From assembly GCA_030826915.1 (NCBI GenBank), contig JAUUDE010000055.1:1-34937 (forward strand): a stretch of 34,937 nucleotides of DNA, given 5' to 3'. The notes below the pieces were generated by a model, which saw only the letters and a program-made list of their open reading frames with translations, was not told where the DNA came from and ran no database searches. Origin of the DNA: Thiomicrospira sp. Its GTDB lineage: Bacteria; Pseudomonadota; Gammaproteobacteria; Thiomicrospirales; Thiomicrospiraceae. Both the position numbers and the translations under genes were made by a program. Positions 23,525-29,496 of this stretch are shown one piece after another. Positions within the stretch are counted from its first letter, which is position 1. The number at the start of each line of letters is the position of its first letter.

Positions 23525-23545
23525 GTGTAAATAGTTGATACTAAA

Positions 23546-23811
23546 TAGTCGACTCTGAATAACTACTTTAAAATTATGTGGGACGTTTAAGTAGGTAGGC
23601 TTTAGGCGTGGATCGCAGGTAAGGGTTGTATCCTTGCCAAGATTCACAACAACGAGCATGCCTGCTTAAACGCCCACCCGAAGGGGCTGCGCCAGTTTTC
23701 CCTCAACTCCGTTAGAATTTCTTATGTTATCTAGATAGCACTTTAAAATTCTGCCTTGTTGAGGAAAAGCTGGCTTTGCCATAATTTAAACTAGTTATTT
23801 AGAGTCGACTA
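23546..23811. repeat. Non-coding foldback (MITE-like) element with ~32-bp inverted ends and two internal long hairpins
   Basis: Left TAGTCGACTCTGAATAACTACTTTAAAATTATG versus right (rc) TAGTCGACTCTAAATAACTAGTTTAAATTATG; internal stems 23578-23676 and 23691-23774; no ORF. Confidence 0.75.
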
Positions 23812-23866
23812 ACTACCTTATAATTAATTCATCAGTCATTTTTAATTGGAATTTGATAAAAACACT

Positions 23867-29337: not shown

Positions 29338-29496
29338 GAGACTTCAGCACGAGTGAATTCACATATAAAAATGGTTAAAACCCGTCTGATTTTTGTTAAA
29401 AACCTTGCTAATAGCTAGCTATTAGCTTCGTTTTTTGCCTAAATCAGACAAGTTTTTCGACATTTTTCGTTTGTGCCTCACTCGAGCAAAGGTCTC
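29338..29496. mobile_element. ~159-bp near-palindromic MITE-like element in the thrC leader, with possible TSD TAAAT
   Basis: Ends GAGACttcaGCaCGAGTGA / rc GAGACctttGCtCGAGTGA; core GTCTGATTT...GCTAATAGCTAGCTATTAGC...AAATCAGAC; flanked by TAAAT at 29333-29337 and 29497-29501. Confidence 0.65.

Follow-up and report, generated by a model that had tools for sequence, protein, structure and literature searches.

IS-derived MITEs are thought to be mobilized in trans by their parent IS (PMC10969869). Membership in the REP/BIME group is recognized by GT[AG]G at the 5' foot of a hairpin of 21-65 nt (PMC6006769, PMC2817692). In Pseudomonas fluorescens, the intergenic repeats R0, R2, R26 and R200 are dispersed and MITE-like; R200 is 320 bp long, with 47 copies in SBW25, and R26 is 352 bp long. 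The table describing these repeats gives no structure for R200 and R26, and no conserved fold is described (PMC2718517). Bacterial MITEs are usually seen as dead IS fragments. The element considered here departs from this picture by exchangeable ends and by a conserved interior with very strong covariation. It lies in the window (the whole stretch of 34,937 nucleotides that was analysed), where it starts 23 bp past a yqaA-like gene (VTT domain) and has nlpD (LysM/M23) on its other side. A literature search by concept and by end sequence, among mainly non-subscription papers, found no description of it.

The element between yqaA and nlpD and its copies

The sequence-only reading described a non-coding region at positions 23546-23811, with inverted ends and two hairpins, and the sequence is present as stated (Table 1). 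The predicted RNA fold of this interval reproduces the long closing stem and both hairpins where that reading had placed them, at -125.3 kcal/mol compared with -65.7 +/- 5.1 for shuffles (z -11.7); the opposite strand is also strongly folded (z -8.7), and so is the sequence under DNA parameters (z -8.6). In the window, no ORF of at least 80 aa covers the element. The MITE proper amounts to 262 bp of non-coding DNA. As checks, the same reading had put forward a genome-wide search for homologues, a comparison of the yqaA-nlpD gap in relatives, a covariance model and an Rfam search, the outcomes of which are given below.

Table 1. Positions of the MITE, its parts and a related solo hairpin in the window
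Feature	Positions	Strand	Evidence or remark
Left target-site duplication	23542-23547	.	TAAATA, read directly; TANNTA pattern across the family
Left terminal inverted repeat, 16 bp	23548-23563	+	GTCGACTCTGAATAAC; in all complete copies; matches IS5-family ends
Full MITE, 262 bp	23548-23809	+	Repeat copies in its own genome and comparison of ends and duplications
Hairpin A and linker, module in sense orientation	23574-23694	+	Model R1, 126.5 bits
Conserved internal loop of hairpin A, 5' side	23601-23607	+	TTTAGGC here; CWAGGC in the family
Conserved internal loop of hairpin A, 3' side	23648-23655	+	AACAACGA
Short linker hairpin between A and B	23677-23686	+	CCCGAAGGGG; two GC pairs never vary
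Hairpin B, diverged inverted module copy	23663-23784	-	R1, 27.4 bits, E 1.9e-5; next noise match E 1.1
Right terminal inverted repeat	23794-23809	-	GTTATTTAGAGTCGAC as read on the + strand
Right target-site duplication	23810-23815	.	TAACTA, one mismatch to TAAATA
Solo AT-rich hairpin of the same family	29352-29469	-	Palindromic tip AATAGCTAGCTATT; R1, 51.5 bits, E 5.8e-12

The genome that carries the window, G000 (1.79 Mb, 99 contigs, 86% complete), holds about 35 copies matched by a 266-bp query, many of them full length and 88-95% identical; full-length copies with 84% identity occur in G023 and G015. G000 is a Thiomicrorhabdus genome, most of the closest named relatives of the protein encoded next to the element being from that genus. 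Complete copies bear the 16-bp ends and fall into several length groups, the shortest of 55 bp with nothing but the ends, then about 122 bp, about 175-203 bp with a single hairpin, and about 262 bp. Perfect 6-bp flank duplications border 29 of 41 complete elements spanning 49 to 269 bp, compared with 6.4 expected from pairing flanks across different elements. The target reads TA(A/T)(A/T)TA in consensus, and three TTATTA copies show a duplication length of 6 bp, not 2 bp. In the 18 relatives examined at this place, the gap between yqaA and nlpD lacks the element, and the copy at this site is thus an insertion. Copy number, terminal inverted repeats (TIRs), target duplications of 6 bp and an IS5-family insertion sequence with like ends identify the element as a MITE, as the 'MITE-like' wording of the sequence-only reading had anticipated. 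The window copy matched nothing in collections of plasmids and phages, and the exact TIR pattern matched nothing in a genome-contig collection. The G000 contigs C71, C35, C18, C79 and C20 end inside MITE copies, so that the family probably fragments this assembly.

The copies all lie between genes, often within a few bases of a stop codon, and none breaks a long ORF. Their gene pairs are tandem in 24 cases, divergent in 10 and convergent in 7. The constant intergenic position, the proximity to stop codons and the very stable predicted fold would suit a structured RNA or 3'-UTR element serving the host and domesticated at yqaA-nlpD-like sites, for instance as an mRNA stabilizer, an attenuator or an sRNA. 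This interpretation is nevertheless quite improbable, given that the element is missing from the gap in relatives, that its copies decay nearly neutrally, that gene orientations are mixed with no terminator-type bias, and that neither a terminator nor promoter-like sites above chance were found in or beside the element. A terminator function was itself rejected, for lack of a terminator signal and of a bias toward convergent genes.

Partnerless terminal repeats of 16-20 bp (L090-L103, for example L094 4096 and L097 4006) were also observed, about 7 in G023 and about 11 in G000; most are located at the ends of genes. One of them (L094) sits in the loop of an intrinsic-terminator-like hairpin, and some seem to provide a stop codon. 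These solo repeats are possibly footprints of hairpin deletion.

A candidate source of the transposase came from an end search across the genus, which found in G024 a 5.4-kb element (L201 988-6375) with TIRs GTCGGCTCTGAATAAC/GTCGATCCTGAATAAC and TAATTA on both sides. Its IS5-family transposase matches NF033578 (E 3.3e-116), as well as DUF772 and DDE_Tnp_1 by Pfam, and is split by nested IS66- and IS3-type insertions. The same genome contains a 51-bp ends-only element (L208) that consists of the end of this very IS. In other bacteria, related transposases are flanked by GTCGRCYCTGAAYAAC-form ends, and the 6-bp duplications of related IS copies read GACTTC (L213), TACTTA (L224) and TATCGA (L235). 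The disrupted copy in G024 is the only one of a matching IS5-type transposase in the genus; no intact match was detected in G000 or in the other genomes rich in GTCGACTCTGAATAAC-type ends, and a PF01609 search of G000 and G023 found no transposase. As no intact copy was found in these two genomes, the parent may be lost or missing from the assembly. Given the match of its ends to those of IS5-family insertion sequences, the MITE is probably moved in trans by an IS5-family transposase of the NF033578 type.

Covariation and strand of the twin module

The module is marked by the conserved unpaired motifs CWAGGC and CAACRMCG. Elements built like that of the window, with different ends and different stem sequences, were recognized in other Thiomicrorhabdus from weak BLAST matches (L034, L035, L036) and also from motif matches (L100, in G000, and L203). 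In the genus set (A2), a plain alignment of nine sequences gathered without any covariance model, 22 of the 38 pairs of hairpin A are changed on both sides; the covariation score is 0.514, compared with 0.227 for shuffled controls (0 of 500 reach the score), and slid structures do not exceed 0.159. All nine sequences carry the unpaired motifs T.TAGGC and AACAACGA without change. In the class-wide alignment, whose members were chosen by an RNA model in a way that favours pairing, unlike those of the genus set, two-sided changes affect 32 of 37 pairs and the score reaches 0.675 (0.203 shuffled, at most 0.111 slid). The unpaired internal loops are among the most conserved columns class-wide, while the stems vary. 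Against the 4227 families of Rfam 15, neither the window nor 19 class-wide loci gave a match at the gathering score, and nothing credible appeared at E up to 1. The interior is therefore a structured nucleic-acid module of unknown class, as its covariation, its conserved unpaired motifs and its absence from Rfam attest. The 'structured RNA of unknown class' of the sequence-only reading thus survives in the wider sense of a nucleic-acid module; homologues exist and their stems covary, the opposite of the outcome that this reading had named against itself.

The two hairpins had also been called independent, and here the earlier description has to be corrected: hairpin B repeats hairpin A in diverged and inverted form, and is matched on the minus strand by R1, the covariance model of hairpin A. 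Run unfiltered on the window, R1 gives three places above noise, namely hairpin A, hairpin B and the solo hairpin of Table 1. At 12 of 19 out-of-genus loci, the same element is matched on both strands around a shared linker. Hairpin B covaries in its own right, with 27 of 31 pairs altered on both sides. Solo hairpins similar to that of the window are numerous in G015 and G018, and one lies near a solo TIR in G000 (contig C23).

A G-C pair that mutates to G-U on one strand reads A-C on the other, and the kind of mismatch found in a stem can thus indicate the strand that folds. In its own sense, hairpin A shows 65 G-U and 9 A-C, or 52 and 9 if only mostly Watson-Crick columns are counted. On such columns, hairpin B read in the sense of A shows 6 G-U and 22 A-C, a result against which its structure, predicted in the A sense, works. 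The asymmetry between the two is marked on mostly Watson-Crick columns (Fisher p 8e-9) and over all columns, including one invariant U-G column (p 9e-5), both p-values being overstated as cells are not independent events. This opposite asymmetry indicates that selection favours the folding of A on one strand and of B on the opposite one. One transcript in which both A and B are working folds is unlikely, and transcripts from either direction, or ssDNA, fit. The excess of G-U in hairpin A (65, compared with 20 other mismatches) leans toward RNA rather than ssDNA and does not decide between them.

Covariation in a palindrome could have another origin. In an ordinary MITE with a functionless interior, paired changes would result from arm-to-arm repair by template switching and not from selection. 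Arm-to-arm correction of long palindromes is known, and in recent copies the ends, loops and stems have diverged to nearly the same degree (3.6-7.2%), with only a weak wobble bias. We nonetheless hold this explanation to be unlikely: the unpaired internal loops, which such repair would remove, are strongly conserved class-wide; the module survives changes of terminal repeat; and the wobble asymmetry of A and B indicates opposite strands. The even divergence and weak wobble bias of recent copies suggest that selection acts on the spreading lineage and not on each resident copy.

Folding on opposite strands also brings to mind REP/BIME (REPIN)-type elements, whose single-stranded hairpins are the substrate on which a RAYT (TnpA-REP) HuH transposase acts to move them. 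Two inverted mismatched hairpins, an intergenic position and multiple copies would agree with such an element, as would the presence of Y1-transposase genes in 21 of 32 genomes. However, a confident module match lies within 1.5 kb of only 1 of 30 Y1-transposase loci; the module-rich G023, G020 and G004 have no Y1 gene, and G044 and G046 have the gene and no module. Moreover, the hairpin has C[AT]AG at its foot, not GT[AG]G, and measures about 100 nt, and TIRs with duplications of fixed length suit a DDE transposase. This origin is thus very improbable, and the RAYT hypothesis was rejected on the distribution of Y1 loci and modules.

Spread of the module and exchange of its ends

Of 32 Thiomicrorhabdus genomes, 26 contain the module according to R1, with between 1 and 85 hits per genome. 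Beyond the genus, it was found, often as multiple copies, in 78 of 369 sampled Gammaproteobacteria (E 1e-7 or better) and in 48 of 399 members of a phylum sample, including one family outside the class; in both scans E-values are rough and copy numbers are lower bounds, at most nine candidates having been scored per genome. Among named organisms, it occurs on plasmids of Azotobacter chroococcum, Pseudomonas aeruginosa PA83 and Halomonas sp. PA16-9, the PA83 copy being placed between two annotated genes. When used as a query, a non-Thiomicrorhabdus member matched four plasmids and gave no match in the phage collection or in E. coli genomes.

Elsewhere, the element of about 260-266 bp is bounded by GGAACCTCTGAATAAG-like, GGGAAACTCTGCACGA-like, GTGTCC-like, GGGTCTGTT-like or GGGCACCTC-like ends, and a simple search found 4-bp duplications (among them TTAA, CTAG and TTAG) in 17 of 42 elements outside the family of the window. 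Within G000 itself the core occurs between two end types, as illustrated by L100 and L303 compared with the window copy. The core has no match in 19 IS-related loci, which argues that the module is not an IS fragment, and its interpretation as an IS remnant was rejected on this ground. The neighbouring genes, considered as possible partners of the module, are unrelated housekeeping genes, and no protein partner was found. Carried between varied terminal repeats across Gammaproteobacteria, the module has been under long-term structural selection.

In L273, an open frame of 694 aa with ABC-transporter domains (717-2798, +) contains a core element that adds no stop. The palindrome CAGGCCTG recurs intergenically in Thiomicrorhabdus and relatives (L055, L105, L112, L119).

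Proposed explanation and known systems

The explanation that we favour, and consider fairly likely as a whole, is that of a MITE between yqaA and nlpD, from a widespread superfamily, whose covarying twin module acts as a single-stranded fold. A non-autonomous element has inserted between the two genes and would be cut and pasted in trans by an IS5-family transposase. Its module would work as a folded single strand, either transcript or ssDNA, and a widely conserved host factor would bind the CWAGGC/CAACRMCG internal loops. The inverted pair would provide one correctly oriented hairpin for either direction of insertion. The gain, a tolerated insertion or mobility, would fall to the propagating element rather than to individual host loci. 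Alternatively, a double-stranded or cruciform DNA form of the module could in principle assist transposition.

A broader version of the favoured explanation is put forward tentatively, with doubts that slightly outweigh our confidence. Gammaproteobacteria and one further proteobacterial family would share an unnamed class of RNA or ssDNA modules, housed in MITEs of about 260 bp that swap terminal repeats and hence transposases; the inverted pair would keep one hairpin oriented, and the module would bind a conserved host factor that aids tolerance or spread. If this is true, a folded single-strand module is the core around which a class of small selfish elements is organized. Annotators would gain a family outside Rfam, behind many intergenic repeats and assembly breaks, and a clear experiment would be at hand on how elements become tolerable to their host.

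Known systems resemble the element in different respects. First, IS-derived MITEs such as Coxiella QMITE2 (PMC10969869) are likewise short, non-coding, intergenic and multi-copy, with TIRs, target duplications and a strongly folded predicted transcript. In contrast, the interior here is a conserved covarying twin module found class-wide between varied ends, and not the remnant of one IS. Second, the IS5 family (NF033578; ISPna3-like) shares the terminal consensus GTCGRCYCTGAAYAAC, with 6-bp duplications in several relatives, and is a plausible source of transposase; its IS loci lack the module, and the MITE encodes nothing. Third, REP/BIME/REPIN elements with RAYT (PMC6006769, PMC2817692) also consist of an inverted pair of imperfect hairpins, dispersed between genes and structured as single strands, but the hairpins described here are of about 100 nt, have conserved internal loops, are bounded by TIRs and show no GT[AG]G foot and no RAYT linkage. 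Finally, R200 and R26 are comparable to the element in size, and a Pseudomonas plasmid and related records contain members of the module family; by this likeness in size and host, some of the Pseudomonas 'R' repeats (R200, R26) may be members of the module family.
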